From: a virus
DNA: 28,857 nucleotides
Strand: one strand, 5' to 3'
Virus record (IMG/VR): IMGVR_UViG_3300009184_000152
Coordinates: 1-28,857 of that record
The notes under the pieces were generated by a model. That model did no database searches and was not told the origin of the DNA. It saw only the letters and a list, made by a program, of their open reading frames with translations. Position 1 is the stretch's first letter. The number at the start of each line of letters is the position of its first letter. Shown here piece after piece: positions 3,769 through 22,129 of this stretch. Both the position numbers and the translations under genes were made by a program.

Positions 3769-4143
3769 ATGCCAAGCACAAGCAAGAAACAACACAATTT
3801 CATGGCAGCGATTGCAAATTCGCCATCGTTTGCTAAGAAAGTAGGCGTCCCACAGTCCGTGGGCAAAGATTTTACAACTGCCGATAAAGGCAAGAAATTT
3901 TCAAAAGGTGGTGATACTATGGCTACAAAAATGATGGGTATGAAAAAAGGCGGCATGAAAAAAATGGCTGCTGGCGGTTCTGTTAAGGCTTCATCCATGG
4001 GCAAAGTTGCAACAGCGGCTCCTAGCCGTGATGGTATGGCTGTCAAAGGCAAGACCAAAGGTACGCAAATTAAAATGGCCGGTTCTGGTGTGCCTAATGG
4101 CATCGGTTCCCGTGTAATGAAAAAGGGCGGCAAAACTTGCTGA
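3769..4143 (+). CDS. Small basic Gly/Lys/Met-rich protein (DUF3008-like N-terminus)
   Basis: 124 residues. Residues 1-46 (MPSTSKKQHNFMAAIANSPS and onward) resemble the SKKQxxFM start of the DUF3008 group. Then comes a low-complexity middle with KKGGMKKMAAGGS, and near the C-terminus RDGMAVKGKTKGTQIKM. This last motif recurs in the next gene, so the two C-terminal parts are paralogous. No enzyme motif is visible. The strong positive charge suggests binding to DNA or to acidic capsid surfaces, perhaps as a packaged protein. Its start lies one base after the previous stop. Confidence 0.82.
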   Translation: MPSTSKKQHNFMAAIANSPSFAKKVGVPQSVGKDFTTADKGKKFSKGGDTMATKMMGMKKGGMKKMAAGGSVKASSMGKVATAAPSRDGMAVKGKTKGTQIKMAGSGVPNGIGSRVMKKGGKTC

Positions 4144-4157
4144 TCTAAGGAGCCATC

Positions 4158-4559
4158 ATGGCAAGAGACACAGTTTATTACGATGACCAGTCCAAGGGTG
4201 GCGGTGGTAGCGGCAAACTTTTTAAAGCCATGGAAGCATATGGTGGCCCCGCTGCGTTAGCAGGTAGCGGCGCGGCTGGTTATGCCGACTATAGACTTTC
4301 AAAACAAAGAGAGCAAGACAAAAACGAAGCGGCCTCTGAAATGAAGCGCGAGTCTCGTGGTGTCCCAAAACCCGCTAACTTTGATGCTATTCAAGAAGCT
4401 AAACAAGAAGTCAAAGATGCTGCTGCTCGTAAAAAGATCAGTGACATGGGTTACAAAAAAGGCGGTATGACAGCTTCCAAACGCGGCGACGGTATTGCTG
4501 TCAAAGGCAAGACCCGTGGCACTATGATCACTATGAAGGGTGGCGGCTGCGCCTACTAA
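4158..4559 (+). CDS. Small phage protein with helical middle and basic DGxAxKGKTxGT tail
   Basis: 133 residues, with AAGGAG before the start. The N-terminal part is Gly-rich (residues 10-45) with a hydrophobic Ala/Gly stretch (GGPAALAGSGAAGYA). The middle is a charged helix rich in Lys, Glu and Gln (residues 48-95). The C-terminal tail (KKGGMTASKRGDGIAVKGKT then RGTMI) repeats the tail of the previous gene. The function is unknown. The Gly/Ala stretch could touch membranes, but is too short for a sure membrane segment. Confidence 0.78.
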   Translation: MARDTVYYDDQSKGGGGSGKLFKAMEAYGGPAALAGSGAAGYADYRLSKQREQDKNEAASEMKRESRGVPKPANFDAIQEAKQEVKDAAARKKISDMGYKKGGMTASKRGDGIAVKGKTRGTMITMKGGGCAY

Positions 4560-4563
4560 AATT

Positions 4564-4839
4564 ATGATGCCATCCCGTGGTATGGGCGCAATTCGCCCCT
4601 CAAAAATGCCCGGCGCTAAGAAAATGGCGCGGCGGGATGACACTGATTTCACCCAGTACAAAGAGGGTGGCAAGGTAAACGCCGCTGGCAATTACACAAA
4701 ACCTAGTCTTCGCAAGAAGATTTTGGCGCAAGTAAAAGCCGCAGCAACGCAGGGTACTGGCGCGGGTCAGTGGTCGGCACGTAAAGCACAGCTTGTTGCC
4801 AAGAAGTACAAGGCGGCTGGCGGGGGCTACCGAGATTGA
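4564..4839 (+). CDS. First half of a DUF5872-like architecture (KPxLR...GQWSARKAQ)
   Basis: 91 residues from the ATG at 4564, four bases after the previous stop. An in-frame GTG at 4540 would add 8 residues but lies inside the upstream gene, with the nearest GAAGG touching it, so I prefer the ATG. Residues about 38-90 carry NYTKPSLRKKILAQVKAA, GAGQWSARKAQLVAKKYKAA and GGGY, the signature of the first part of DUF5872-like proteins found in bacteria and phages. The function is unknown. A KEGGKV motif precedes this domain. The gene overlaps the next by four bases. Confidence 0.8.
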   Translation: MMPSRGMGAIRPSKMPGAKKMARRDDTDFTQYKEGGKVNAAGNYTKPSLRKKILAQVKAAATQGTGAGQWSARKAQLVAKKYKAAGGGYRD

Positions 4840-5069
4840 AAGCGCCGCAAAAATCCCTAAAGGATTGGGGCAACCAGAAATGGAGAACCAAAAGTGGAAA
4901 ACCGTCTAGTAAAACAGGTGAAAGATACCTTCCAGAAGCTGCGATCAAAAGTCTCAGCCCTGCTGAGTACGCTGCGACGACCAAAGCCAAGCGGGCAGGA
5001 AAAGCCGCCGGAAAACAATTCGTAGCCCAACCCAAGACAATCGCAAAGAAAACAGCAGGGTATAGATAA
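4836..5069 (+). CDS. Second half of a DUF5872-like architecture (KSLKDWG...RYLP)
   Basis: 77 residues starting with a TTG at 4836 that overlaps the TGA of the previous gene (TTGA), so translation is probably coupled. No ATG is available before the conserved part. The sequence QKSLKDWGNQKWRTKSGKPS, ETGERYLP-like GERYLPEAAI and AGKQFVAQP match what follows GQWSARKAQ...GGGY in the single-chain proteins I recall for this family. The protein is basic and of unknown function. The final TAA overlaps the next start (TAATG). Confidence 0.8.
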   Translation: MKAPQKSLKDWGNQKWRTKSGKPSSKTGERYLPEAAIKSLSPAEYAATTKAKRAGKAAGKQFVAQPKTIAKKTAGYR

Positions 5070-6001
5070 TGGCTAAGACCACCGGAACCACAGCCTTTAA
5101 CCTCGACATGAACGACCTCATTGAAGAGGCGTTTGAGCGTTGCGGTCAAGAACTTCGTACGGGCTATAACTTCCGCACTGCACGTCGGTCATTAAACTTG
5201 CTAACAATTGAGTGGGCAAACCGTGGTTTGAACTTCTGGACTGTAGAACAGGGCCAGATTCCAATGGTGACGGGTCAGGCTATCTACCCCATGCCGGTAG
5301 ACACAATCAACCTCCTAGACACCGTTGTGCGCCAAAGCAATGGCACATCTAATCAGATTGATATCAACATCAGCAGTATTTCCGAATCGACCTACATGAG
5401 TCTGCCAAACAAGTTGGCACAAGGTCGCCCAATTCAATATTGGTTTAACCGCCAGTCTGGCCAAGAAAACCTGTCTACTGTTACTTTAAACGGCACTATA
5501 TCGTCTACAGCCACCACAATCACAGTGTCAAATGTGGCTAACTTAACGACCGCTGGGTTTATCAAAATTGATAACGAGACGATCAGTTACCCCAACGTAG
5601 ACCCGGTAAACAATCAGTTGATTAACTGTGCTCGTGGACAGAACGGCACAACCGCTGCGGCGCATACTACTGGTGCAGCTATGACCGTGCAGAACCTACC
5701 TGCTATTAACGTGTGGCCTACGCCTAACGCGCCCGGTGACCAGTACATGTTTGTGTACTACCGCATGCGCCGTATTCAGGATGCTGGCTCTGGTGTAACT
5801 GTGCAAGATATTCCATTCCGTTTTATTCCTTGCATGGTGGCAGGATTGGCTTATCTGTTGAGCATGAAATTGCCAGAAGTTGATCCAAACCGTGTAATGG
5901 CGCTTAAAGCCGACTACGAACAGCAGTGGGAATTGGCTCAGTCAGAAGACCGCGATACCTCTCCATTGAGGTTTGTGCCAAGGAACTTGTTCTATGCCTA
6001 A
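5069..6001 (+). CDS. P22 gp4-like tail accessory factor (head-tail connector) with inserted beta-domain
   Basis: 310 residues. Start FNLDMNDLIEEAFERCG, then RTGYNFRTARRSLNLLTIEW, and later YPMPVDTINLLDTVVRQ match phage proteins related to P22 gp4, which sits on the portal and seals the packaged head. The C-terminal part (PFRFIPCMVAGLAYLLSMKL, then a helix with DYEQQWELAQ) is also typical. Residues about 138-208 are a Thr/Ser/Asn-rich beta segment (ATTITVSNVANL, then CARGQNGTTAAAHTTG) lying between YWFNRQ and INVWPTPN, which are close together in the homologues I recall, so it looks like an inserted domain. The start overlaps the preceding stop as TAATG. Confidence 0.85.
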   Translation: MAKTTGTTAFNLDMNDLIEEAFERCGQELRTGYNFRTARRSLNLLTIEWANRGLNFWTVEQGQIPMVTGQAIYPMPVDTINLLDTVVRQSNGTSNQIDINISSISESTYMSLPNKLAQGRPIQYWFNRQSGQENLSTVTLNGTISSTATTITVSNVANLTTAGFIKIDNETISYPNVDPVNNQLINCARGQNGTTAAAHTTGAAMTVQNLPAINVWPTPNAPGDQYMFVYYRMRRIQDAGSGVTVQDIPFRFIPCMVAGLAYLLSMKLPEVDPNRVMALKADYEQQWELAQSEDRDTSPLRFVPRNLFYA

Positions 6002-6422
6002 TCGGTTTTCTTCCGGTAAGCATGCAATTGCTGAATGCGACCGTTGTGCGCAGAGGTACATGCTCAAGGAATTAAAGACACAGACGGTTAAGACTAAGCC
6101 ATTTAAGGTCAAAGTTTGCCCAGCATGTTGGGATCCCGATCAGCCACAGTTGCAACTGGGTATGTATCCAGTTAATGATCCGCAAGCTGTGCGTGAGCCG
6201 CGCCCTGATGTGAGTTACATAGTATCTGGCCAAAGTGGCCTACAGATTTTGCTAACGGACAGCACCACACAAGATGGGTTTGGTTATCCAGAGCAAGGCA
6301 GTCGGGTCTTTGAATGGGGCTGGAGTCCCGTTGGTGGAGCAAGTGGATTTGATACACTTTTAACGCCAAATAGCTTGGTGTTAGCAATAGAACTTGGTAC
6401 AGTTACGGTTACAGTTACATAA
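5994..6422 (+). CDS. Zinc-ribbon phage protein, function unknown
   Basis: 142 residues from the ATG at 5994, which overlaps the end of the upstream gene by 8 bases and has AAGGAA 8 bases upstream. An in-frame TTG-type start further up is unlikely because it lies inside the neighbour. Two CxxC pairs (CDRC near residue 17 and CPAC near residue 42) flank a Lys/Thr-rich stretch and make a probable zinc ribbon. Then follows DPDQPQLQLGMYPVNDPQAV, a string recurrent in phage proteins next to gp4-like genes. The C-terminal 60 residues look beta-rich (EWGWSPVGG; VTVTVT end). A structural role in the neck is possible. Confidence 0.83.
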   Translation: MPNRFSSGKHAIAECDRCAQRYMLKELKTQTVKTKPFKVKVCPACWDPDQPQLQLGMYPVNDPQAVREPRPDVSYIVSGQSGLQILLTDSTTQDGFGYPEQGSRVFEWGWSPVGGASGFDTLLTPNSLVLAIELGTVTVTVT

Positions 6423-6432
6423 GGAGCTTGAA

Positions 6433-6636
6433 ATGGACAAAGCGGATTTAAAACAGGACAAAAAGATGATGGCTGGAGCCGTGCATAAGCATGAGAAAAA
6501 GCTGCATCCCGGTCAGCCTATGACCAAATTGGCCAAGGGTGGCAAGACAAATGCTCAGATGAAAGCTCTGGGTCGTGGTTTGGCCAAAGTGGCTAATCAG
6601 AAAAAGTCTTCCTTCACATACAAAAAAGGAGCTTGA
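6433..6636 (+). CDS. Small Lys-rich phage protein
   Basis: 67 residues from the ATG at 6433, preceded by AAGGAG at 6421-6426. The sequence MDKADLKQDKKMMAGAVHKH then EKKLHPGQPMTKLAKGGKTN is very basic and mostly helical, with a KGGK motif in the middle and a Lys-rich end (NQKKSSFTYKKGA). I have seen similar proteins in aquatic phages near neck genes, without a known function. Binding to packaged DNA or to the portal region is possible. The charge and the KGG motif link it to the basic proteins at 3522-5069. Confidence 0.8.
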   Translation: MDKADLKQDKKMMAGAVHKHEKKLHPGQPMTKLAKGGKTNAQMKALGRGLAKVANQKKSSFTYKKGA

Positions 6637-9007: not shown

Positions 9008-10195
9008 ATGTTCGGTATCTCCGCATTTGCCGAAGCGCCGTTCGCCTCGCTTGCGGGGCAGACGGTAGTCGTTGCTCTTACCGGCGTTCAGGCATCTGGC
9101 GCGGTAGGATCAGTCACGGCAAATAGTACCGTTGCTACTACAGGAGTTTTGGCTTCGGGTGCGGTAGGTACTGTAATAGGTGTTGAGTCTTTAGCTCTTA
9201 GTGGGGTTGAAGCGGCTGGCGCAGTTGGTACGGTTACGATAGCGGATAGAAATATTGCGCTGACTGGTGTTGAAGGTACGGGCAGGATTGGCGACGCTGT
9301 TGGAAGCAGTACTGTTGCTTTGACAGGAGTTTCAGCTTCTGGGGCAGTTGGTGATGTTGTATATACCAAAGCCGAAGCGTTAACTGGGGTTGTAGCCGCA
9401 GGCGCAGTTGGTGATGTAACGCTTGCAGGAACTGCGGCTCTAACTGGGGTTCAGGCACTAGGCGCAGTAGGTATTGTTACTCAAACGGGTGGCTCTACTG
9501 AAACAGGAGTTATAGCTTACGGCTCGGTTGGTAGTGTATCTGTAGGCAGCGTCACGGTTGCTCTGACTGGCGTATTTTCTTATGGAGATGTTGGCGCAAT
9601 TGGTGTAGCGGGTGTTGAGGCAGGACTTGTACACGTTGAAGCTGATGGTAATGTAGGCACAGTTAGCGTAGCTGAACGGTTTATTGCTCTGACTGGAGTT
9701 TCAGCTACTGGTACGGCTGGCGATATTCCTAGAGAGCTACCTATCTCGGGCGTTGAGGCTCAAGGTGCAGTAGGCAGTGTTGGTGTAGCCGCTGTGTCTG
9801 TAGCGTTGTCTGGAGTTAGCGCCTCTGGTGGGGTTGGCAATACCGGTGTTTTGCATGAAAATTCCTTAAACCTTCAAAATGGTTGGGGTACAGGCGCTTG
9901 GGGTGAGTATGGATGGGGTGAAGGCCCACCTGATACGATGCTTATTGGCGGTAGTGTTGGGTCAGTTTCTGTTACTCGTGTACACGATATTACAGGTGTA
10001 CAGGCTAGAGGATTTGTTGGCACATTTGGTGTTATCCATATCAATGGTGTATCAGGTGTTTCAGCTTTAGGGTTTGTTGGGAATGTCGCTGATTATTTTT
10101 GGACAACTATTGATGACAACCAGAATCCAGACTGGCATAATATAAGCGACTCAGATGTTGCCGCTTGGTCATTGATTGAAACGGAAGATGCGTAG
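9008..10195 (+). CDS. Virion protein made of about 15 LTGVxAxGxVG repeats
   Basis: 395 residues. After a short start (MFGISAFAEAPFASLAG) nearly the whole chain is built of 18-22-residue repeats with the core (A/S)LTGVxAxGAVGxV; I count about 15, the tenth degenerate. A Trp/Gly-rich break (NGWGTGAWGEYGWGEG, residues about 291-306) separates the last two. The C-terminal 33 residues (TTIDDNQNPDWHNISDSDVA) resemble terminal segments of other phage repeat proteins. The repeats suggest a beta-solenoid or filamentous beta stack on the virion. Two more copies of the same repeat occur at the end of the gene at 21737, pointing to shared structure or recombination. No enzyme motif is present. Confidence 0.85.
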   Translation: MFGISAFAEAPFASLAGQTVVVALTGVQASGAVGSVTANSTVATTGVLASGAVGTVIGVESLALSGVEAAGAVGTVTIADRNIALTGVEGTGRIGDAVGSSTVALTGVSASGAVGDVVYTKAEALTGVVAAGAVGDVTLAGTAALTGVQALGAVGIVTQTGGSTETGVIAYGSVGSVSVGSVTVALTGVFSYGDVGAIGVAGVEAGLVHVEADGNVGTVSVAERFIALTGVSATGTAGDIPRELPISGVEAQGAVGSVGVAAVSVALSGVSASGGVGNTGVLHENSLNLQNGWGTGAWGEYGWGEGPPDTMLIGGSVGSVSVTRVHDITGVQARGFVGTFGVIHINGVSGVSALGFVGNVADYFWTTIDDNQNPDWHNISDSDVAAWSLIETEDA

Positions 10196-10213
10196 CATAA
10201 GTAAGGATGCAAT

Positions 10214-10657
10214 ATGGCTCTAGTATTAGCAGATCGCGTTAAAGAAACCACGACCACGACTGGTACGGGTATGGTGACTCTGCTTGGAGCTTCAACGGGC
10301 TTTCAATCCTTTGCTATAATTGGTAACGCAAATACTACTTACTACACAATTGCGGGGCAAACTGGCAATCAGTGGGAAGTGGGTATTGGTACATACGGCG
10401 CGTCTGGCACAACGCTATCTCGTACCACAGTATTGTCTAATAGCGCAGGAACTCAACCTTCTGCGCTTGATTTTTCGGCAGGTACAAAAGATGTATTTGT
10501 TACCTATCCCGCAAGCTATGCTGTGGCTGCTACCAATGTTGGAACATCAGGCCAAGTACTTGTGTCAAACGGTACGGGTGTAGCCCCTACATTCCAAACA
10601 AGCACGGCAGCATCAAAATCGTATGTACAGGCAATGAGCATCCTGAATGGACTATAA
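10214..10657 (+). CDS. Beta-rich fibre or tail-surface protein
   Basis: 147 residues, preceded by TAAGGA. It starts MALVLADRVKETTTTTGTGM and runs through FQSFAIIGNANTTYYTIAG, QWEVGIGTYGASGTTLSRTT and DVFVTYPASYAV. This is a conserved beta domain that I know from many phage tail-fibre proteins, often fused to the N-terminus of longer fibres; here it is alone with a short tail (GTSGQVLVSNGTGVAPTFQT) of the kind that usually leads into a fibre shaft. A separate, stand-alone fibre part is therefore likely. It lies 18 bases after the LTGV repeat protein gene. Confidence 0.85.
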   Translation: MALVLADRVKETTTTTGTGMVTLLGASTGFQSFAIIGNANTTYYTIAGQTGNQWEVGIGTYGASGTTLSRTTVLSNSAGTQPSALDFSAGTKDVFVTYPASYAVAATNVGTSGQVLVSNGTGVAPTFQTSTAASKSYVQAMSILNGL

Positions 10658-10666
10658 GGACATAAC

Positions 10667-11272
10667 ATGGCAGTAACAAATTTTACCCCTCTCCTTGGTC
10701 TGGCATTGCCAACCACGGGCGATCTGTCCGGCACATGGGGAACCACGGTTAATACCGCTATTACTGATTTGCTTGATGATGCGGTGGCTGGTACGGTCAC
10801 GCTTTCAGCAAATGCAGATGTAACGCTAACTACAACAAATGGCGCGGATAACCAAGCACGTAACGCCATTATCTTGTGGACAGCCAGTAACGGCGCAACC
10901 ACTCGGAACATCACGGCTCCAGCCCAGAGCAAGGCTTATGTTGTAATTAACGCAGGCACTGGCTCTATTGTTGTTCGTGGCTCTGGCCCCACGGCTGGCG
11001 TAACTATTACCTCGGGCACTAAGGCATTAGTTGCTTGGAACGGTACCGATTTTGTTAAGGTCATTAGTAATCCAATCGTTCTTACCACTGATGTTTCTGG
11101 GATTCTTCCAGTAGCAAATGGTGGTTCGGGTACAGCTACCCCAAGTTTGGTTCAAGGAACAAACGTTACCATCACAGGTACATGGCCTAATCAAACTATT
11201 GCCGCTGCTGGTGGTAGTAGCGGTATTACCGCTGGCCAATCCATTGCTTTTGCTTTAATATTCTCTATCTAA
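10667..11272 (+). CDS. Fibre-like structural protein
   Basis: 201 residues, with AAGGA upstream. It begins TPLLGLALPTTGDLSGTWG and continues with VNTAITDLLDDAVAGTVTL, QARNAIILWTASNGATTRNI and APAQSKAYVVINAGTGSIVV. This is a recurrent phage fibre module with a small helical start and a beta sandwich. The rest contains GILPVANGGSGTATP, the proline/glycine string common before fibre tips. The chain ends early with SGITAGQSIAFALIFSI, a hydrophobic terminal beta strand that recurs in short fibre proteins. The role is probably in the host-contact apparatus together with neighbouring genes. Confidence 0.85.
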   Translation: MAVTNFTPLLGLALPTTGDLSGTWGTTVNTAITDLLDDAVAGTVTLSANADVTLTTTNGADNQARNAIILWTASNGATTRNITAPAQSKAYVVINAGTGSIVVRGSGPTAGVTITSGTKALVAWNGTDFVKVISNPIVLTTDVSGILPVANGGSGTATPSLVQGTNVTITGTWPNQTIAAAGGSSGITAGQSIAFALIFSI

Positions 11273-11282
11273 AGGAGTTCTC

Positions 11283-11666
11283 ATGGCCGCACCAAATATT
11301 GTTGCTGTAACAACAATTACACCAAACACACTGTCTATCACACCCGCTGATACGTCACGTAATGCGCTTGTAGCTGCGCCTTCTTCTGGCACTGCATTTA
11401 AAATCAACCAGATCATGATTGCAAACATTGACGGCTCTGCGGCGTATGACGCAACTGTTGAATTGCGTTTGGCGGATGGTACAACTTACCGTGCTCTTGG
11501 CTCCACAATCTCTGTTCCAGCCGATGCCACATTGATTTTGCTTGATAAGACTACAGCGTTGTATTTGCTAGATACCAGCGTAACGGGTCAGCCAAGCACA
11601 TTGTGGGCTACAAGCAGCACAGCAAGTAAGTTGACATTTACAGTCTCATACGAAGCTATCACCTGA
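11283..11666 (+). CDS. Small beta-sandwich virion protein
   Basis: 127 residues, AAAGGAG before the start. The alternating pattern (FKINQIMIANIDGSAAYDAT; VELRLADGTTYRALGSTISV; KLTFTVSYEAIT) suggests a single beta-sandwich domain of the sort found on phage heads and tails. It contains few charges and no membrane segment. Small proteins with the same style (start APNIVAVTTITPNTL) are common in aquatic phages, with no defined role. Situated between the fibre-like proteins and the kelch-like genes, it is probably part of the tail tip or fibre base. Confidence 0.8.
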   Translation: MAAPNIVAVTTITPNTLSITPADTSRNALVAAPSSGTAFKINQIMIANIDGSAAYDATVELRLADGTTYRALGSTISVPADATLILLDKTTALYLLDTSVTGQPSTLWATSSTASKLTFTVSYEAIT

Positions 11667-11678
11667 TAGGGGGGCATC

Positions 11679-12893
11679 ATGCCACTACGTCCTCCTGCTG
11701 GGTTTATCTCAGCATTTTTTGATCCGCTGAACAATCCTAATGCTCCGGTTTCTCCAGTAGCCACGGCTGGTGACGCAGACGCATCTATTGCTTTTACCCC
11801 GCCTACTAATGTGGGGGGTTCGGCTATTTCATTATATTCAGCCATTTCAACGCCCGGAGGTGTTATTGGTTCTGCGGCATCATCTCCTGTCACAGTGTCA
11901 GGGTTGTCAAATGGTACGGCTTATACGTTTGCTGTATGGGCTACAAATACTTATGGGCCAAGCGCATACAGCGTAGCTACTAACAGCGTATCTCCTTCTG
12001 GGCCAAGAGGTATTTTTGCTGGTGGAACTACAGACGGGGCTGGAAATACCTACACCAATACTATCCAATACATCGTAATTAGTTCTACAGGCAACGCCAC
12101 TAATTTTGGTGATTTAACTCTCAAACGTAGAAGTTTGACTTCTTGCGCTTCTACTACTCGTGGGGTATTTGCTGGTGGGCGGGACATAAATGGTTTTGCT
12201 AACACAAATATTATGGACTACGTAACAATAGCCTCTACAGGAAATGCGGCAGATTTTGGGGATTTGTTATCCGCATCAACACTTTATGCAGGTTGTTCTT
12301 CTTCAACTCGTGGGGTATTTGGAGGAAATGATGGCAATGTGATCCAGTACATCACAATTGCAACTACAGGCAACGCCACAGATTTTGGTGATTTTTCTGC
12401 AAATTGTTACAACTCCACCGCTTGTTCTTCTCCTACTCGCGGTTTATTTGCACTTGGAAGAACAAGTGTTGTTTCCAATGTTATTGAATACGTTACGATT
12501 GCTACCACTGGCAATGCTACAGACTTTGGTGACTTAAGTGTTGCAAGGCAAAGTCTTGCTGGATGTTCATCTTCTACAAGAGGTGTATTTGGTGGTGGTG
12601 GTACTAATAGTGGGGAAACAAACGTAATTGATTTTGTCACCATAGCCTCGACAGGAAATGCAACAGACTTTGGCGATTTGACGCTTGCACGTACAGAGTT
12701 AGCCGCATGCTCTTCTAACATTCGCGGATGTTGGGGCGGCGGCATTGACGCTGGATACCAAAATGTAATTGATTACGTCACCATCGCATCGGCAAGTAAT
12801 GCTACCGATTTTGGCGACCTTGCGGCCATTACAGGCTACAGCGGGCGTAATTTGTTAACTGGATGCTCTAACGCATCCGGAGGAGTTCAATAA
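11679..12893 (+). CDS. Kelch-like repeat protein 1: fibronectin III domain plus six repeats
   Basis: 404 residues. An N-terminal region starting PLRPPAGFISAFFDPLNNPN leads into a fibronectin type III domain (residues about 22-107, with AYTFAVWATNTYGPSAYS). Then follow exactly six repeats of about 43-56 residues, each of the form RGxFxGG, variable loop, N(V/T)I(D/Q)YxTIxxTGNATDFGDL, variable stretch, (A/S)CSSST. The diglycine and following Tyr recall kelch motifs, so I predict a six-bladed beta-propeller. The chain ends in a terminal variant, CSNASGGVQ. Ser/Thr-rich, Lys-poor, no signal peptide. Its TAA overlaps the next ATG. A receptor- or glycan-binding tail part is likely but not shown. Confidence 0.85.
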   Translation: MPLRPPAGFISAFFDPLNNPNAPVSPVATAGDADASIAFTPPTNVGGSAISLYSAISTPGGVIGSAASSPVTVSGLSNGTAYTFAVWATNTYGPSAYSVATNSVSPSGPRGIFAGGTTDGAGNTYTNTIQYIVISSTGNATNFGDLTLKRRSLTSCASTTRGVFAGGRDINGFANTNIMDYVTIASTGNAADFGDLLSASTLYAGCSSSTRGVFGGNDGNVIQYITIATTGNATDFGDFSANCYNSTACSSPTRGLFALGRTSVVSNVIEYVTIATTGNATDFGDLSVARQSLAGCSSSTRGVFGGGGTNSGETNVIDFVTIASTGNATDFGDLTLARTELAACSSNIRGCWGGGIDAGYQNVIDYVTIASASNATDFGDLAAITGYSGRNLLTGCSNASGGVQ

Positions 12894-15770
12894 TGCCAAG
12901 TTATTCAGGTGTATGGACACTCACTGCTCAGTACCAAGCCCAAGGTGCAGGGAATTGGCCTCTGCCGCCTTTGACGGGCGACATTGGTTTATTTATAGGT
13001 GGGGGAACGGCTTCGGGTTACAGGAATATTATTGATTACATTACTATTACCTCAACAGGAAACGCAATTGATTTTGGTGACATATCTCAGACTTTAGGTA
13101 ATTTAGCAGCTTGCGCTTCTACTACACGAGCCTTGTCTGGTGGTGGCACCCTTTCTGGAAGTATCTTTAGTTATACCAATGTAATTGATTTTGTAACCAT
13201 AGCCACAACGGGTAACGCTACAGATTTTGGTGATTTAACTGTTGAAAGGTTTAGTCTTAGTAGCTGTAATTCTTCTACTCGTGGCTTGTTCGCTGGGGGA
13301 AATGCTGCATTTGATACGTTTAACACCATTGATTATGTGACGATAGCCAGCGCAGGGAACGCTACAGACTTTGGTGATTTGACTGTAGCTAGAACCAGTG
13401 TGTCGTCATGCTCATCCTCAACCAGAGGTGTTTTTGGTGGGGGTTCTGCTGGTGGTGACCTAAATACCATTGATTACGTAACAATTGCCTCTGCGGGTAA
13501 CGCCACAGATTTCGGTGATTTGCTTGCCGCTAATTACTACGTAGGTGCATGTTCTTCATCTACAAGAGGAGTTTTTGCTGGCGGTAATTCAAACGTTATT
13601 CAATATGTAACGATTGCTTCTACAGGTAACGCCACAGACTTTGGTGATTTATCAGCATCAACATCTGGCCCTGCGGGGTGCTCAAATTCAACTAGGGGCG
13701 TCTTTGGTGGTGGTTACACAACAGATTACACCAACACAATCCAATACATTACGATTGCCAGCACTGGTAACGCAACAAGTTTTGGTGCTTTGACTACAGC
13801 TAGGGGGTTTTTGGCTGGAACTTCAAACTCCAACGGAGGTACTCAATAATGTCAATCTCTTCATGGAACGCAGGGATCATCAGACCCGTAGCCGTACCTC
13901 CTGCTGGGCCGTATGCAAGCGGAGCGGCTCCCGGTGTGTGGACGCTGGATCAAGCAACATTTTGGATCAAGCAAGGGCTTTGGCCTACGGCTGGTAATGT
14001 CGCACCAATTGGGTTGTTTGCGGGTGTGGCAAGTGGGGCTTCTAATGTAATTAACAGTTTGGTTTTAGCGTCTGCTGGTAATGCTGTAGATTTTGGTGAT
14101 TTGACAGTTGCTAGACTTTATGTAGCATCTGCAAGTTCTAGCACCCGAGGTCTTTGGGCGGGCGGCTCAATTGGTGGTGCGGAAAATAATACAATTGATT
14201 ACGTAACAATTGCGACTACAGGCAACGCCACCGATTTTGGTGATTTGACTGTTGAGTTATATGCTCTTTCTGGAGCGTCAAATGCAGTACGTGCGTGTTT
14301 TGGTTCCGGTAGAGACTCTGGAAGTAGTGTTGGTAATAACACTATCAGTTACGTCACAATTGCATCCACGGGTAATGCCACAGATTTTGGCGATTTAACA
14401 CAAAGACGTTATGCAACTGCCGCTTTAGCCTCAGATACACGGGCTGTTTGGGCTGGTGGTGATGGTACAGGTGGGCCATTTAATACAATTGATTATGTAA
14501 CAATTGCCTCAACTGGCAACGCCACAGATTTTGGTGATTTGATTACCGCAATATCAAACTCTGCTGGATGTTCTTCAAATACACGAGGGTTATTTGGTGG
14601 CGGCAGTTCGTCAACAAACGTAATTCAGTATATCACTATTGCTACAATAGGTAATACAACTGACTTTGGTGATTTATTAGCTACTACAAGCGTGTTGGCT
14701 TCTTGCGCTAGTTCTACTCTTGGCTTTTTTGCTGGAGGTAATAACTTAGCTGGATCTGCCACAAATGTAATTCAGTATGTGACTATCGCTAGTACAGGAA
14801 ATGCAACAGACTTTGGTGATCTAACAGCCGTAGCAAGACAATTTGCAGGATGTTCAGGAGCTGCAGCAGCAGTCCAACCCACACCAACAAGTGCGGCTAT
14901 GGCTTTCTTTGGTGGCGGTTATGGCACGGAAACACAAGCAAGCATCCAGTATGTAAATATTGCTACCACTGGCGATGCAATGTTGTTTAGCAACTTGACA
15001 GCACCTAGATACAACTTGGCTTCTTGTTCTTCAGCAACAAGAGGGGTTTGGGCGGGTGGCGTACCAAACGGTGGATCAAACTCAAATATAATTGATTACA
15101 TCGAGTTTTCAACATTTGGAAACTATGCTGATTTTGGTGATCTAGCATCTGCTGTCACCAATTTATCGGGGCTATCAAATAGCACCAGAGGGTTATTTTC
15201 TGGGGGCTACAACGGCTCAGTAGCAATAAATGTCATTCAGTACATCACCATTGCAACTACTGGTAATACCACTGACTTTGGTGATTTACTAAATATTCTT
15301 AATTATGGAGCTTCTTGTGCTTCGTCTACTAGAGGAATAACTGCTGGTGGCGATAGTGCCGCTGGAACTAGATATAACGTCATTCAGTACGTCACCATTG
15401 CTTCTGCTGGGAATGCAATAGATTTTGGTGATTTAACTAAAGGAGACGATTGCGGTTCTATGGCTAGTTGTTCGTCTTCTACTAGAGGGTTATTTGCTGG
15501 AGGCTCAGGCACAGGGGTTACTAACATTATTGATTATGTGACAATTGCCACAACTGGCAATGCCACAGACTTTGGTGATTTAATTACACCAACCTCATTA
15601 CTTGCAGGCGCATCATCATCAACAAGAGGTGTGTTTGCTGGTGGGTATACAACACAATACATAAACGTCATTCAATATGTAACCATCGCCTCAACAGGTA
15701 ACACAACCGATTTCGGGGACTTGGCAACTCCAAATGCGTTTTTTCCTTGTGGTGGTTGTTCCAACGCCCA
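12005..15770 (+). repeat. 24 kelch-like coding repeats over three genes
   Basis: Repeat units of about 130-170 bases run across three genes with a conserved core that encodes TGNATDFGDL; at DNA level the string GATTTTGGTGATTT or close variants recurs in most units. Third-position differences are common, so most copies are old or diversified, yet core similarity remains high enough to allow recombination among units. Units per gene are 6, 6 and 12. Confidence 0.85.
12893..13849 (+). CDS. Kelch-like repeat protein 2: six repeats
   Basis: 318 residues, starting with TAATG coupling. The N-terminal cap (YSGVWTLTAQYQAQGAGNWP, residues 4-22) matches a motif common at the start of phage fibre proteins, and a similar cap is present in the next gene. 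From residue 31 on there are six repeats of the same family as in the preceding gene, without the fibronectin domain. The last repeat has a terminal variant (FGALTTARGFLAGTSNSNGG). Most repeats contain GNATDFGDL; the first has GNAIDFGD and the sixth GNATSFGAL, as edges of a ring might. Predicted to be one six-bladed propeller on a short N-terminal base. Confidence 0.85.
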   Translation: MPSYSGVWTLTAQYQAQGAGNWPLPPLTGDIGLFIGGGTASGYRNIIDYITITSTGNAIDFGDISQTLGNLAACASTTRALSGGGTLSGSIFSYTNVIDFVTIATTGNATDFGDLTVERFSLSSCNSSTRGLFAGGNAAFDTFNTIDYVTIASAGNATDFGDLTVARTSVSSCSSSTRGVFGGGSAGGDLNTIDYVTIASAGNATDFGDLLAANYYVGACSSSTRGVFAGGNSNVIQYVTIASTGNATDFGDLSASTSGPAGCSNSTRGVFGGGYTTDYTNTIQYITIASTGNATSFGALTTARGFLAGTSNSNGGTQ

Positions 15771-15783
15771 CGGTGGTTTATGA
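13849..15783 (+). CDS. Kelch-like repeat protein 3: two fused sets of six repeats
   Basis: 644 residues, starting with TAATG coupling. After an N-terminal cap (PGVWTLDQATFWIKQGLWP, residues 29-47) come twelve kelch-like repeats. Repeats 1-6 span residues about 54-343 and end in CSGAAAAVQ, which resembles the terminal CSNASGGVQ of the first gene of this family. A Pro/Thr linker (PTPTSAA, 344-350) follows. Repeats 7-12 start at Met351 and end in CSNAHGGL. Repeats 7 and 8 are the most divergent (VNIATTGDAMLFSNL; IEFSTFGNYADFGDL). This looks like two six-bladed propellers joined by fusion of former separate genes. Position and composition suggest a surface, host-contact protein. Confidence 0.85.
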   Translation: MSISSWNAGIIRPVAVPPAGPYASGAAPGVWTLDQATFWIKQGLWPTAGNVAPIGLFAGVASGASNVINSLVLASAGNAVDFGDLTVARLYVASASSSTRGLWAGGSIGGAENNTIDYVTIATTGNATDFGDLTVELYALSGASNAVRACFGSGRDSGSSVGNNTISYVTIASTGNATDFGDLTQRRYATAALASDTRAVWAGGDGTGGPFNTIDYVTIASTGNATDFGDLITAISNSAGCSSNTRGLFGGGSSSTNVIQYITIATIGNTTDFGDLLATTSVLASCASSTLGFFAGGNNLAGSATNVIQYVTIASTGNATDFGDLTAVARQFAGCSGAAAAVQPTPTSAAMAFFGGGYGTETQASIQYVNIATTGDAMLFSNLTAPRYNLASCSSATRGVWAGGVPNGGSNSNIIDYIEFSTFGNYADFGDLASAVTNLSGLSNSTRGLFSGGYNGSVAINVIQYITIATTGNTTDFGDLLNILNYGASCASSTRGITAGGDSAAGTRYNVIQYVTIASAGNAIDFGDLTKGDDCGSMASCSSSTRGLFAGGSGTGVTNIIDYVTIATTGNATDFGDLITPTSLLAGASSSTRGVFAGGYTTQYINVIQYVTIASTGNTTDFGDLATPNAFFPCGGCSNAHGGL

Positions 15784-15811: not shown

Positions 15812-16657
15812 TTGAGCAATGAACTGATCCTTGGCAACATGAACACTGCGCTGGTCGTAACAAAACCAGAGTACAACTTGATGTTGAAAAACATTCAAGA
15901 CCGGATGCCTGCCGTCACACGCGACACCAGCAACTTCCATAAGTCTCATAGCCAATTCATGTCGGTAACACTAGACGTAACGGCTATCACACCAATCCGT
16001 TCTATTAAGCACACCCTTGCCGAAATTGACAGAACTAAGTCTGCCCTGCAAGAAGCCTATATTGGCTTGCGTAAAAAACAAAACGAGTTGAAAAAGAAAG
16101 AGCGTGATCTGGAAGCCTCAACCGATCCGCTTGACCGTGAACTGTTTGAGATTGAAATCTTGGAACTTAACAGCCACCTTGAAGGCACACAAAACGCAGT
16201 CAACGGCGCGATTCGTAAAATGAACTTTATGGTGAATCAGCACCAACAACTGTTGGAAGCTGTTGGCAAGAACGAAATTACCGAAGAAGATTACGAGCGT
16301 GAAGAGTCCAAGTACCACATCATGACCTGTATGAAGCAAGCCCTGAATGCGGCGCGTTCACGCAACGGCATGATTGACGAAGGCAACTTGATTTATTTGT
16401 TTGACTTAGGTATCAACGCCGCTCAAGCACAAGCTGAAGTGTTTGCTTACCTGAACATGGAGAACCAGCTTATCTCCAACGGCAACGCCCCTACGCACGA
16501 GATGACCATACGTTGGCTTGAGGCTTGTGCAGACAAGTGGCAGCAAGACCCTGCTACCTTTGCGGCTCGTCGTGGCTTTTCCGTATTTGACCGTTCGTCT
16601 TTGACCAACTCTCCTGCGCTAGAAATGGCTCCTGACCCAGAGCAAAAGGCCGCATAA
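15812..16657 (+). CDS. Coiled-coil phage protein, function unknown
   Basis: 281 residues. I start it at the TTG at 15812 because AGGAG (15801-15805) lies 6 bases upstream, the start peptide becomes MSNELILGNMN, and upstream in-frame sequence lies within the kelch-like gene. Residues about 65-190 form a long charged helix (KSALQEAYIGLRKKQNELKK; DRELFEIEILELNSHLEGTQ), then a helical C-terminal domain with LIYLFDLGINAAQAQAEVFA and WLEACADKWQQDPATFAARR. No catalytic motif. Possible roles are fibre assembly chaperone or an internal structural protein. It overlaps the glycosyltransferase start by one base (TAATG). Confidence 0.8.
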   Translation: MSNELILGNMNTALVVTKPEYNLMLKNIQDRMPAVTRDTSNFHKSHSQFMSVTLDVTAITPIRSIKHTLAEIDRTKSALQEAYIGLRKKQNELKKKERDLEASTDPLDRELFEIEILELNSHLEGTQNAVNGAIRKMNFMVNQHQQLLEAVGKNEITEEDYEREESKYHIMTCMKQALNAARSRNGMIDEGNLIYLFDLGINAAQAQAEVFAYLNMENQLISNGNAPTHEMTIRWLEACADKWQQDPATFAARRGFSVFDRSSLTNSPALEMAPDPEQKAA

Positions 16658-17367
16658 TGCACCTCGTCGTCGGCACACCATGTTTCGGGGGGATGATGTG
16701 TACCGAATACACGGAGTCCCTGCTGGCGCTCAAGGAAGCCTGCCTGATGAACAACATCAAGCTGACGTGCATATTCCTTGGGAACGAGAGTCTGGTGCAA
16801 CGTGGCAGGAATACCATCGCGCATCACTTCATGCAGATGCAGGATGCAACCCACCTGATCTTTATTGACGCTGACCAGAAGTTTGTGGCAAACGACATTG
16901 CCCGAATGATTAAAGCCGACAAAGGTATTGTGGGTGGCCCAGTCCCTATGAAGGGAATTAACTGGGATAAGGTGCGTCAGGGCGCTGTTCTGAACCATCC
17001 TGCCCTGCACAAGCTGACGGGCATTTTTAATTTAAACAAGCTGGATGGTCACGAGATGATTAGCCCAGACTTACCGTTTCAAGTAAAGCATATTGGCACA
17101 GGATTTATGTTGATCCGCCGCGATGTTTTTGAGAAACTACAGTCTCATGTTGGTTGGTACGATAACGGGGGTGTAACTATCCCCAAGGGCGAGAAGGTGT
17201 ACGATTACTTCAAAGTGCAGAACTACGACCACGAGCTTCTGTCCGAGGACTACAACTTCTGCCACTTGTACCGTGAGCATGGTGGAACCGTCTGGGCCGC
17301 GCCTTGGTGCGAACTTGGACACTTTGGCGCATATCTTTTTAGCGGGCAATACGCCCAAGGAGCATAA
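16657..17367 (+). CDS. GT-A type glycosyltransferase
   Basis: 236 residues. The order of motifs fits a GT-A fold: an N-terminal strand with VVGTPCFGG, a charged region NESLVQRGRNTIAHHFM (residues 44-60), a metal-binding DAD triplet in FIDADQKF (D71-A-D73), a MLIRRDVFEKL strand-helix, then the acidic EDYNFC (near residue 200) and a late His in ELGHFGAYLF. It would move a sugar from a nucleotide-sugar donor; acceptor unknown. It lies just after the kelch-like and fibre genes, so virion protein modification or host surface sugar modification are both possible. No signal peptide, so cytoplasmic. Class is clear from motifs, substrate is not. Confidence 0.85.
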   Translation: MHLVVGTPCFGGMMCTEYTESLLALKEACLMNNIKLTCIFLGNESLVQRGRNTIAHHFMQMQDATHLIFIDADQKFVANDIARMIKADKGIVGGPVPMKGINWDKVRQGAVLNHPALHKLTGIFNLNKLDGHEMISPDLPFQVKHIGTGFMLIRRDVFEKLQSHVGWYDNGGVTIPKGEKVYDYFKVQNYDHELLSEDYNFCHLYREHGGTVWAAPWCELGHFGAYLFSGQYAQGA

Positions 17368-18686: not shown

Positions 18687-19178
18687 ATGTTTGAAGTATT
18701 TGGTGGCATATTGGGCGGGGCGCTAGGTGGTATCTTTCGCTTGGCTCCGGAAGTTCTCAAGTTCTTTGACAAGAAGAACGAACGCCTGCATGAGATGGCA
18801 ATGTTCTCCCGTCAGTGCGAACTTGAACAGCAACGGGGTCAAATGCGTTTGGCTGAGATTGGCGCACAGCGGGAAGCCGCTATTGACGTAGGTGTTATGG
18901 ATGCGTTTAACAACGCAATTGAGCAACAAGCCACAATGGTCAAAGCCGCAGGTGGTTGGGCGGCTAGTCTGTCTGCATCTGTTCGTCCTGTTGTAACTTA
19001 CTGGATTCTTTTGGTCTGGTCTTTTGTGCATTTGTGGTTTGGCTGGAACTCATGGATTGCAGGTGCTGCTCCTATGGAAGTCTTCAAGATGATGATGTCA
19101 CCTGACTTCTCGGCACTCTTGGCTGGAACAATTAACTATTGGTTCCTCGATAGAACTCTGAAGCAACGCGGGCTATGA
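18687..19178 (+). CDS. Membrane protein next to endolysin, candidate holin (3-TM type)
   Basis: 163 residues. Residues 1-22 (MFEVFGGILGGALGGIFRLA) form a glycine-zipper hydrophobic helix. Then comes an amphipathic, charged region (27-85) and a second hydrophobic block (VVTYWILLVWSFVHLWFGW, 102-120) with a weaker third one (FSALLAGTINYWFLDRTLKQ, about 141-160). This resembles phage proteins annotated as holins of three transmembrane helices. The gene directly precedes and overlaps the endolysin (ATGA), which supports a lysis role. The string FRLAPEVLKFFDKKNERLHE is frequent in phage proteins beside lysozyme genes. Confidence 0.75.
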   Translation: MFEVFGGILGGALGGIFRLAPEVLKFFDKKNERLHEMAMFSRQCELEQQRGQMRLAEIGAQREAAIDVGVMDAFNNAIEQQATMVKAAGGWAASLSASVRPVVTYWILLVWSFVHLWFGWNSWIAGAAPMEVFKMMMSPDFSALLAGTINYWFLDRTLKQRGL

Positions 19179-19618
19179 ACTTAGAACTAGCCGCAGAGAT
19201 GTGCAGACGGTTTGAGGGCTTTCGCTCCAAGCCGTATCTTTGCCCTGCCAACGTAGCCACAATTGGCTACGGTTCTACTTACTACGCAGACAAGCGTAAG
19301 GTAACTTTGGAAGACGCACCGATGGATGAGCCCACGGCACGGGCGCTTTTAATGATTGAACTTGAGCATACGTACCTGCCCGGTGTTTTGCGTAACTGCC
19401 CCGGCTTGATTACAGACGTTCGCAAGTGCAATGCCATCGTGGACTTTGCCTACAATTTGGGCACAGGACGCTTGCAAACATCCACGTTAAAGAGGAAAAT
19501 CAACGCCAATGATTGGGAAGGTGCAAAAGAACAACTGATGCTCTGGACTAAAGGTGGCGGCAAGGTATTGCCGGGCTTGTTAAAACGACGCACGGCTGAG
19601 TGCGCTTTACTGGATTGA
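19175..19618 (+). CDS. Endolysin, GH24 phage lysozyme (T4/P22 type)
   Basis: 147 residues. It hydrolyses the beta-1,4 bond between MurNAc and GlcNAc in peptidoglycan. The N-terminal catalytic triad is visible: Glu14 in RFEGFR, Cys23 in YLCPANVA and Thr29 in ATIGYG, with the same spacing (9 and 6 residues) as Glu-Asp-Thr in T4 lysozyme; Cys replaces Asp, as in some GH24 endolysins. DFAYNLGTGRLQTSTLKRKI and LMLWTKGGGKVLPGLLKRR are typical C-terminal lobe motifs. There is no signal peptide or SAR helix, so it should need a holin. The length is normal for the family. Confidence 0.95.
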   Translation: MNLELAAEMCRRFEGFRSKPYLCPANVATIGYGSTYYADKRKVTLEDAPMDEPTARALLMIELEHTYLPGVLRNCPGLITDVRKCNAIVDFAYNLGTGRLQTSTLKRKINANDWEGAKEQLMLWTKGGGKVLPGLLKRRTAECALLD

Positions 19619-19621
19619 CCG

Positions 19622-21733
19622 ATGCCATTACAAAAATTCCTGTTTAAACCGGGGGTCAACCGGGAAAACACACGATACACCACTGAAGGCGGTTGGTATG
19701 AGGGCGACAAGATTCGTTTCCGTCAGGGTAATCCCGAAAAGATCGGTGGCTGGACTGCGTTTGCCTTTGGCACTTTTACAGGTGTTTGCCGTTCGCTGTG
19801 GAATTGGATCACTTTAGCCGGTGAAAGTTTAGTAGGTGTCGGCACTAACGTGTATTTCTACATACTCAATGGCGGTGCTTATTACGACATTACCCCAATC
19901 CGAAAAACAATCACCCTCACAAATCCGTTTACTGCAACCAATGGCTCAAGTGTCATAGCAGTTTTTGAGACAAACCATGGGTGCGCAGATGGTGATACGG
20001 TTATCTATAGCGGTGGGGGTATTGTTGGTTTAGGTGGCAACATTACGGCGGGTGTTTTAACAAACACTTTTCAAATTTTGTTTGTTGATGATAACAATTA
20101 CAAAATTACAGTGTCTGCCACGGCTAATGCTACAGATGCTTCAGGCTCCCCCGGTGGCGGCACGGTCGTAACGCAATACGAAGTTAATACTGGCTCCTCA
20201 TATCAGGTGCCTCTTGTTGGCTGGGGTGCAGGTGTTTGGGGTGGTGGCACATGGGGTAATAGTCAAGCTACCTCTGCCTCGCTGTACATTTGGAATCAGC
20301 AGAACTTTGGTGAAGATTTACTGTACGGCCCTCGTGGCCAAGGCATTTACTACTGGAGTGCCAACGTAGGGTATGCACCAATTCAAATAACAATCAGTAT
20401 TGCATCTCCCGGAGTTATTACGTTACCCGCTGGGTTTTCGTTCCCTGATGGCACTTCAATTACGTTTACTTCTACAGGCGCATTACCGACCGGCTTGACT
20501 GTTGGCCAAGTTTATTTTGTAGTGAACTCAACGGGTGGCACATTTAATGTGTCTACTTCTATTGCAGGGACACCAATCACAACTGCTGGCGGTCAGTCTG
20601 GTACTCAACGTATTTCTCAACGAGGTATTGATTTAGCTGATGCGGGCGATGATGACGCTCCTATCTATCAAAACTATATTCTTGTGTCTGATGCCAGCCG
20701 TTTTGTACTTGTATTTGGTACAAACGATTATGGTAGTAGCATACTTAACCCAATGTTGATTCGTTGGTCAGATCAAGAAGATCCGTATACATGGACACCA
20801 CAGGCTACAAACCAAGCAGGTAGTCTGCAACTATCTCACGGTTCTCGAATTGTTACTGCTGTGCAGTCTCGTCAAGAGATTGTGGTATTTACAGATTCGT
20901 CGCTTTATTCATTGCAGTACGTAGGCCCACCTTTTGTGTGGACAGCACAACTTATTGCAGATAACGTGTCTATCGTTGGCCCTAATGCCGCCGTGATTGC
21001 ATCTGGCGCGGTGTACTGGATGGGCGTAGATAAATTTTATAAATACGATGGCCGAGTGCAGACATTGAACTGTGATTTGCGTCGTTATATTTTTAGTGAC
21101 TTTAATGCTCTCCAAGCCCAACAAGTCTATGCAGGCACTAACGAAGGCTTTAATGAAATCTGGTGGTTCTATTGTTCTGCCGATTCACTGGTAATTGATA
21201 AATACGTTATCTATAACTACGTTGAAAACGTCTGGAGTTATGGCAGCATGGGTCGTACAGCTTGGTTAGATTCTGGCCTGCTGCCCTTGCCTGTTGCCGC
21301 TACGTATGACAGTGAACTTGTACAACACGAAGATGGTGTAAACGCTTACGCTCTTGGAGAGCAGACAGCACTGTCCGCATACATTTCTTCGTCTGAATTT
21401 GACATTGGTGATGGCCACAACTTTGGTTATGTATGGCGCATATTGCCTGACTTAACGTTTGAGAACTCAACAACTAATCCTGTAAACGGCGACCCCGCCC
21501 AAGTTACTATGACTTTGTATCCGCTACAAAACTCTGGCTCTGGCACAGGGACTGCGGGCAGTGCAAGTGTTACTAAGGGTGCAACATACAACATCACTGA
21601 AGAATATACGGGGCAGGTTTATACCCGTGTTCGTGGTCGCCAGTTAATCTTTAAAATTGCCTCAGATCAGATTGGTACAACATGGCAGTTAGGTGCGCCT
21701 AGGCTAGATATCAGAGCAGACGGTAGGAGATAA
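19622..21733 (+). CDS. P22 gp10-like tail protein (packaged DNA stabilization family) with added beta-domains
   Basis: 703 residues. The start MPLQKFLFKPGVNRENTRYT then GGWYEGDKIRFRQGNPEKIG and GVCRSLWNWITLAGESLVGV is characteristic of phage proteins related to P22 gp10, part of the tail hub below gp4. The middle contains NPMLIRWSDQEDPYTWTPQA, IVVFTDSSLYSLQYVGPPF and WYFYCS-like NEIWWFYCSADSLVIDKYVI. The end has QLGAPRLDIRADGRR. Residues about 97-187 and especially 255-329 (ITISIASPGVITLPAGFSF; VGQVYFVVNSTGGTFNVST) are Thr/Gly-rich beta modules between conserved parts and look inserted. It most likely closes the tail hub. No enzyme motif. Confidence 0.87.
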   Translation: MPLQKFLFKPGVNRENTRYTTEGGWYEGDKIRFRQGNPEKIGGWTAFAFGTFTGVCRSLWNWITLAGESLVGVGTNVYFYILNGGAYYDITPIRKTITLTNPFTATNGSSVIAVFETNHGCADGDTVIYSGGGIVGLGGNITAGVLTNTFQILFVDDNNYKITVSATANATDASGSPGGGTVVTQYEVNTGSSYQVPLVGWGAGVWGGGTWGNSQATSASLYIWNQQNFGEDLLYGPRGQGIYYWSANVGYAPIQITISIASPGVITLPAGFSFPDGTSITFTSTGALPTGLTVGQVYFVVNSTGGTFNVSTSIAGTPITTAGGQSGTQRISQRGIDLADAGDDDAPIYQNYILVSDASRFVLVFGTNDYGSSILNPMLIRWSDQEDPYTWTPQATNQAGSLQLSHGSRIVTAVQSRQEIVVFTDSSLYSLQYVGPPFVWTAQLIADNVSIVGPNAAVIASGAVYWMGVDKFYKYDGRVQTLNCDLRRYIFSDFNALQAQQVYAGTNEGFNEIWWFYCSADSLVIDKYVIYNYVENVWSYGSMGRTAWLDSGLLPLPVAATYDSELVQHEDGVNAYALGEQTALSAYISSSEFDIGDGHNFGYVWRILPDLTFENSTTNPVNGDPAQVTMTLYPLQNSGSGTGTAGSASVTKGATYNITEEYTGQVYTRVRGRQLIFKIASDQIGTTWQLGAPRLDIRADGRR

Positions 21734-21736
21734 CCT

Positions 21737-22129
21737 ATGTCTATGCTTCAGAACCGGTCTTCACCAAACATACCGCAAGCACCTAAAGAGTACGATCAAA
21801 CGTACATGAATGCTTTGAGTAACGTGATTCGGTTGTTTTTTAATAACATCAACACGGTACAACAACTTAATCTGGCAAGTTTGAATCTTGACTTACGTAC
21901 ACTTCCTACGGATGCCGATCTACCTAACTTACGTATTGGCGACGTGTATCGGGATACCCAAGATGGCGTACAGGCCACAAGTCAAATGCTTCGTATTAAA
22001 GTTCCAGTTGAATTGACTGGAGTTTCAGGTTTAGGGGCAGTCGGTAGTGTTGGAGCCGTTGGAGGCACAATTACTAAGAATTTAACTGGTGTTTCTGGGG
22101 CTGGGGCAGTTGGCACAATGACCCCTTAG
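21737..22129 (+). CDS. Small tail protein with two C-terminal LTGV repeats
   Basis: 130 residues, three bases after the gp10-like gene. Residues 1-88 are a helical module (SSPNIPQAPKEYDQTYMNAL; VIRLFFNNINTVQQL) known from phage tail proteins next to gp10-like genes, followed by LPTDADLPNLRIGDVYRDTQ. The last 40 residues hold two copies of the LTGVxGxGAVG repeat that fills the protein at 9008-10195. This makes it an example of an otherwise conserved tail protein that has gained repeat units at its end. Function unknown; probably attached to the tail hub. Confidence 0.82.
   Translation: MSMLQNRSSPNIPQAPKEYDQTYMNALSNVIRLFFNNINTVQQLNLASLNLDLRTLPTDADLPNLRIGDVYRDTQDGVQATSQMLRIKVPVELTGVSGLGAVGSVGAVGGTITKNLTGVSGAGAVGTMTP

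Follow-up and report, generated by a model that had tools for sequence, protein, structure and literature searches.

Three adjacent genes of the window, by which we mean the whole stretch of 28,857 nucleotides analysed here, probably encode four closed six-bladed propellers of kelch type, each with a single variable face, acting as exchangeable adhesins of the virion for the host surface. We numbered these genes 1 to 3; they are on the plus strand, as are the flanking window genes of 9008-11666 and 18687-21733 described below. When the units of the form RGxFxGG...GNATDFGDL...CSSST are counted in the translated ORFs, genes 1, 2 and 3 contain 6, 6 and 12 of them, with a unit length of 43-51 residues (about 47) across the three genes. 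These numbers, their coordinates and the four variants that terminate the sets (CSNASGGVQ, TSNSNGGTQ, CSGAAAAVQ and CSNAHGGL) had been given in an earlier note on this DNA, and all were found again exactly. Gene 1 (404 aa, 11679..12893) starts with a GFIS-type N-terminus, followed by a fibronectin-III-like domain (about 11766-11978; fn3 E-value of 0.0018, below the Pfam cut-off) and by a putative six-unit propeller (about 12006-12890) delimited from the unit pattern only. Gene 2 (318 aa, 12893..13849) combines an anchor of the form GVW...G.WP with a short helix (12893-12976) and a predicted six-bladed propeller (about 12983-13846). Gene 3 (644 aa, 13849..15783) comprises an anchor (13849-13998), predicted propeller A (about 14008-14877), a PTPTSAA linker (14878-14898) and predicted propeller B (14899-15780); its 12 units are thus arranged as 6+6, the divider being the terminal variant CSGAAAAVQ together with the linker.

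Sequence searches give little hint of this architecture. At the DNA level, Tandem Repeats Finder detects no repeats, the units being too diverged; Pfam returned no kelch model for genes 1-3 up to an E-value of 10, and none for 60 relatives among the 25 families listed. The first of two PDB sequence searches found no relative and the second a single chance match to a short chain. In PHROGs, the genes match phrog_19111 (4e-24 for gene 3) and phrog_26444, to neither of which that database assigns a function. The kelch motif can nevertheless be read in an alignment of 2173 distinct units: strand B ends with the double glycine (88% and 93%), and the aromatic residue of strand D, which is Trp in classical kelch repeats, is replaced by Phe in 96% of the units.

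The AlphaFold model of gene 2, built on an alignment of 60 relatives, has a pLDDT of 95.2 and a pTM of 0.90, and its 24 strands are distributed as 3+5x4+1, that is, six four-stranded blades. The first blade is made of strands 31-35, 42-51 and 59-69 and of the C-terminal strand 308-311 (3+1 closure), a register that was taken from DSSP and from the full-length match to closed kelch rings, not from coordinates. With Foldseek, the top ranks for this model are the kelch domains of KLHL12, Plasmodium K13 and KEAP1, with TM-scores up to about 0.9. With VIA-align, a designed six-bladed kelch protein gave a Z of 39.4 and an rmsd of 1.9 over 274 residues; across the designed kelch proteins and Keap1, which is a close second, Z was 37-39 and rmsd 1.8-2.4 over 267-282 residues. 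The gene 3 model (AlphaFold, 34 relatives; pLDDT 82, pTM 0.51) consists of two sets of 24 strands, the second of which (set B) matches kelch proteins with a Z of 39.9; the mutual placement of the two rings is uncertain. Closed six-bladed rings, as claimed by the earlier note for all four sets, are therefore borne out for gene 2 and for both halves of gene 3 at the level of predicted structures, with six blades counted in the former and 24+24 strands in the latter, and extended to gene 1 from its identical unit architecture; taken together, the models and the unit pattern support four closed rings of kelch type in genes 1-3. A solenoid is ruled out by the models of genes 2 and 3.

We then asked how strictly the number six is kept in homologues, using a unit HMM built from the 24 window units and applied to six-frame ORFs from two viral contig samples. 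Sample 1, which consists of the best 80 relatives of gene 2 and may for that reason favour six-unit proteins, contains complete ORFs with 6 units (n=138), 12 units (n=31), 18 units (n=1) and 1-4 units (n=6). Sample 2 was drawn by a short DNA pattern inside one unit, so that array length was not selected, and contains complete ORFs with 6 (n=140), 12 (n=37), 18 (n=2) and other numbers of units (n=18). The two samples share some contigs; once duplicates were removed, the pooled set amounted to 317 distinct complete ORFs, 295 of which carry an exact multiple of six units (238 with 6, 55 with 12 and 2 with 18), as the earlier note had anticipated, and none of which carries 7, 8 or 9. Because of this distribution, the pattern of repeat numbers is far beyond chance, and the absence of ORFs with 7-9 units, together with the models, rules out a ring of seven to eight blades. 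In eight of the 22 exceptions, 5, 10 or 11 units were scored, and an internal gap or a leading stretch without scored units looks by eye like degenerate ones; 11 others are parts of genes that were split, L099 is just a short fragment and two are in-frame losses. In these last two, 3 units remain (L059 5962-6375, also found in L097) or a single one (L015 3994-4191) after an intact N-terminus; they may result from recombination between repeats or from assembly collapse. The strictness would be explained by the way each ring is closed: as the C-terminal strand enters the first blade and completes it, only whole sets of six would be tolerated, which both the model and the homologue counts support. 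Relatives also occur in bacterial assemblies (nine loci, L202-L210, from Parcubacteria, Epulopiscium, Pirellulales and others), mostly on short contigs and mostly with 6 or 12 units; as opposed to a cellular origin, these are possibly phage sequences binned with their hosts, or prophages.

Conservation is very unevenly spread over the unit. Among the 2173 distinct units, entropy reaches 3.0-3.9 bits in the BC loop (columns 8-14, linking strand B to strand C) and 2.8-3.8 bits in the DA loop (columns 36-41, from strand D to the next strand A), versus 0.07-2.2 bits in the CD turn and the start of strand D; conservation is far higher in the turns CD (GNATDFGD) and AB (SSSTRG) than in the two loops, and nearly all insertions are found in the latter, where they are frequent (28% at BC, 8% at DA). 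Since an antiparallel four-stranded blade has its BC and DA turns at one and the same end, the variable segments all point to one face: the BC and DA loops of the six blades make one face of the ring hypervariable, and the opposite AB/CD face is nearly constant. In the proposed mechanism, the AB and CD turns would thereby provide the constant side of the ring and the BC and DA loops its variable one. The earlier note had placed variable loops on the ring faces in general; their exposure on a face stands, but both segments are on the same one. The conserved turns also bear on whether the propellers could be carbohydrate-active enzymes (depolymerases) and not pure binders, as other phage propellers are enzymes, for example endosialidases (PMC4901313). 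We find this quite improbable, as the strongly conserved polar residues are located in turns common to all blades and no Pfam enzyme family was found above the cut-off in genes 1-3 or among the 25 families listed for the 60 relatives.

Eight close pairs, the only usable ones, give a dN/dS of 0.60 for each of the two loops (BC and DA) versus 0.16-0.25 elsewhere, values that fit either diversification or relaxed constraint; a value below 1 drawn from so few pairs does not sustain strong positive selection on the loops. A diversity-generating retroelement was discarded as the source of loop variation, as the reverse transcriptase RVT_1 was found in 0 of 17 contigs (which may be incomplete). Concerted evolution of the blades within a ring was discarded too, as blades of one protein (identity 0.48-0.49) resemble each other at most marginally more than blades of different proteins do (0.46-0.49). 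The position of a blade in the ring is conserved only weakly: in the GVW class, 38% of the nearest neighbours share it, versus about 17% expected.

Several kinds of N-terminus precede the ring module, such as GFIS plus fn3 in gene 1, the short GVW...G.WP form in gene 2, the long form in gene 3, and others. A profile search with the GVW anchor retrieved 29 ORFs of the same loci without kelch units; among the 10 that were examined, 5 carry Gly_rich_2 and 4 carry DUF7483, two of these with Laminin_G_3. By its major capsid protein (63-73%), the phage groups with Synechococcus phage MinM2, Pelagibacter phage HTVC023P and phage DSL-LC04. The last of these, an isolated phage, is collinear with the window: of the window genes 9008-10195, 10214-10657, 10667-11272 and 11283-11666, the first, third and fourth have homologues directly preceding the DSL-LC04 lectin genes, and the virion structural/stabilisation protein (19622-21733) has its homologue after them. 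In this slot, DSL-LC04 carries two proteins, one glycine-rich and the other a ConA-like lectin/glucanase of 1365 aa, and both genes start with the GVW anchor (2.8e-11 and 1.6e-13, respectively, in a two-sequence search); the MinM2 slot holds a tail-fibre-domain protein, the N-terminus of which resembles window gene 10667. The kelch genes thus occupy an adhesin slot, bounded downstream by the endolysin (19175-19618) and the stabilisation protein, and their N-terminal anchor is common to adhesin-like proteins of relatives; a gene in holin position starts at 18687 (phrog_6637, function unknown in PHROGs).

The anchors probably dock each protein on the virion, and a role as virion adhesin appears likely because the same anchor also heads lectin and glycine-rich proteins, including those of DSL-LC04 at the same genome position. 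The host-contact array put forward in the earlier note hence gains indirect support from the shared anchors, the slot and the single variable face. One has to consider that the rings might instead be stabilising decoration proteins of the capsid or tail, whose variable face merely drifts; the genes do sit in the virion structural region, and the loop dN/dS is below 1. This is unlikely in our opinion, given that relatives place lectin-type proteins in the same slot and on the same anchor, and that one would expect a cementing protein to conserve its contact surface and to be present in constant copy number, whereas matches vary from 1 to 6 per contig. Poxvirus kelch proteins act inside cells, and this precedent, together with the Keap1-like fold, could suggest proteins that are absent from the virion and act in, or are released from, the infected cell, blocking other phages or binding host proteins as BTB-kelch adaptors do. 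The position of the genes among virion genes and ahead of the lysis genes, as well as the anchors common to lectin-type proteins, makes this very improbable.

Other features of this part of the genome may be worth recording. Repeats resembling LTGVxAxGAVGxV occur in both 9008-10195 (many copies) and 21737-22129 (two, near the C-terminus), about 11.5 kb apart. ORF 16657-17367 is a relative of HTVC023P gp78 (28%, 8e-26), which adjoins a glycosyl transferase gene in HTVC023P, and has no Pfam match at E-values up to 10. Several small ORFs rich in Lys and Gly, with KKGG motifs (for example 3769-4143, 4158-4559 and 6394-6636), lie 3' of the capsid gene, in 3769-6636.

The three kelch genes are linked by TAATG stop-start overlaps, in which stop and start share one base (12891..12895 between genes 1 and 2, 13847..13851 between genes 2 and 3). 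No other type of junction is as frequent between neighbouring kelch ORFs (91 of 177), and the overlap of genes 1 and 2 is likely to reflect translational coupling; the adhesins of an array would then be co-produced as an exchangeable set binding the host surface. In five loci, a stop-start junction interrupts a propeller, each time within the BC loop, and splits it into 2+4, 1+5 or 4+2 blades: L062 (3447-4669), L094 (2820-4027) and L107 (2471-3585) with TAATG, L081 (4911-5914) with ATGA, and L176 (11603-12616 and 12561 onward) with TAATTAATG and TAAATG. In all of them, the stop codon overlaps the new ATG or directly precedes it; one would not expect frameshifts caused by sequencing errors all to fall in the BC loop with a restart codon. 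Judging from these junctions, the likely reading is that the BC loop tolerates a chain break and that the halves assemble, which would make them natural two-chain propellers. Only tentatively, and with more doubt than conviction, do we suggest that the family could constitute a natural display scaffold, invariant on one face and hypervariable on the other, deployed as a multi-ring array for host binding in which some rings are built from two stop-start-coupled chains (2+4, 4+2 or 1+5).

The family itself is new, and so are the strictness of its sixes, the genes and arrays with several rings, the restriction of variability to one face and the interchange of rings and lectin-type proteins behind a common anchor. 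Abundant environmental phage proteins that are nameless in Pfam and functionless in PHROGs are hereby given a fold and a testable candidate binding face, and the strict six combined with one-sided variability leads to direct predictions of host-specificity residues. The family spans hundreds of loci and, among annotated phages, was found in Synechococcus phage S-SKS1 only (28%). This protein, SWZG_00001, is a distant homologue of the repeats (27.8%) encoded four genes from a tail fibre gene; it differs by the lack of the GNATDFGDL motif, is truncated at the record end and is annotated as hypothetical. The direct sequence relatives are phrog_19111 and phrog_26444, for which PHROGs gives neither function nor fold.

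Kelch propellers have already been reported in phages: jumbo phage vB_PcaM_CBB has three near-adjacent kelch-propeller genes (CBB_550, 552 and 554), and the product of CBB_552 was found in the virion (PMC5259590). The suggestion of the earlier note that no such propeller set had been described in a phage was thus too strong. Both phages have several near-adjacent genes with kelch-type propellers, but the CBB proteins match InterPro kelch signatures whereas no Pfam kelch model matches the window family, which is frequent in environmental contigs and is distinguished by anchors of its own and by double or triple rings in tandem. Staphylococcus phage phi11 offers another parallel, with a propeller as putative receptor-binding domain of a virion adhesin; it differs in having five blades, and each chain of the trimer, which also has a stem and a tower, bears a single ring (PMC4901313). 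As for the fold, Keap1/KLHL and the designed SAKe kelch proteins share six four-stranded blades, the 3+1 closure and an rmsd of about 2 Å with the phage propeller, at only 11-16% identity. In Keap1-type kelch domains, the BC and DA loops form the face of the ligand pocket and the AB and CD turns the other face; in Keap1 and K13, the sites of highest conservation are found on this BC/DA face (PMC6650413), whereas it is precisely there that the phage family is most variable.
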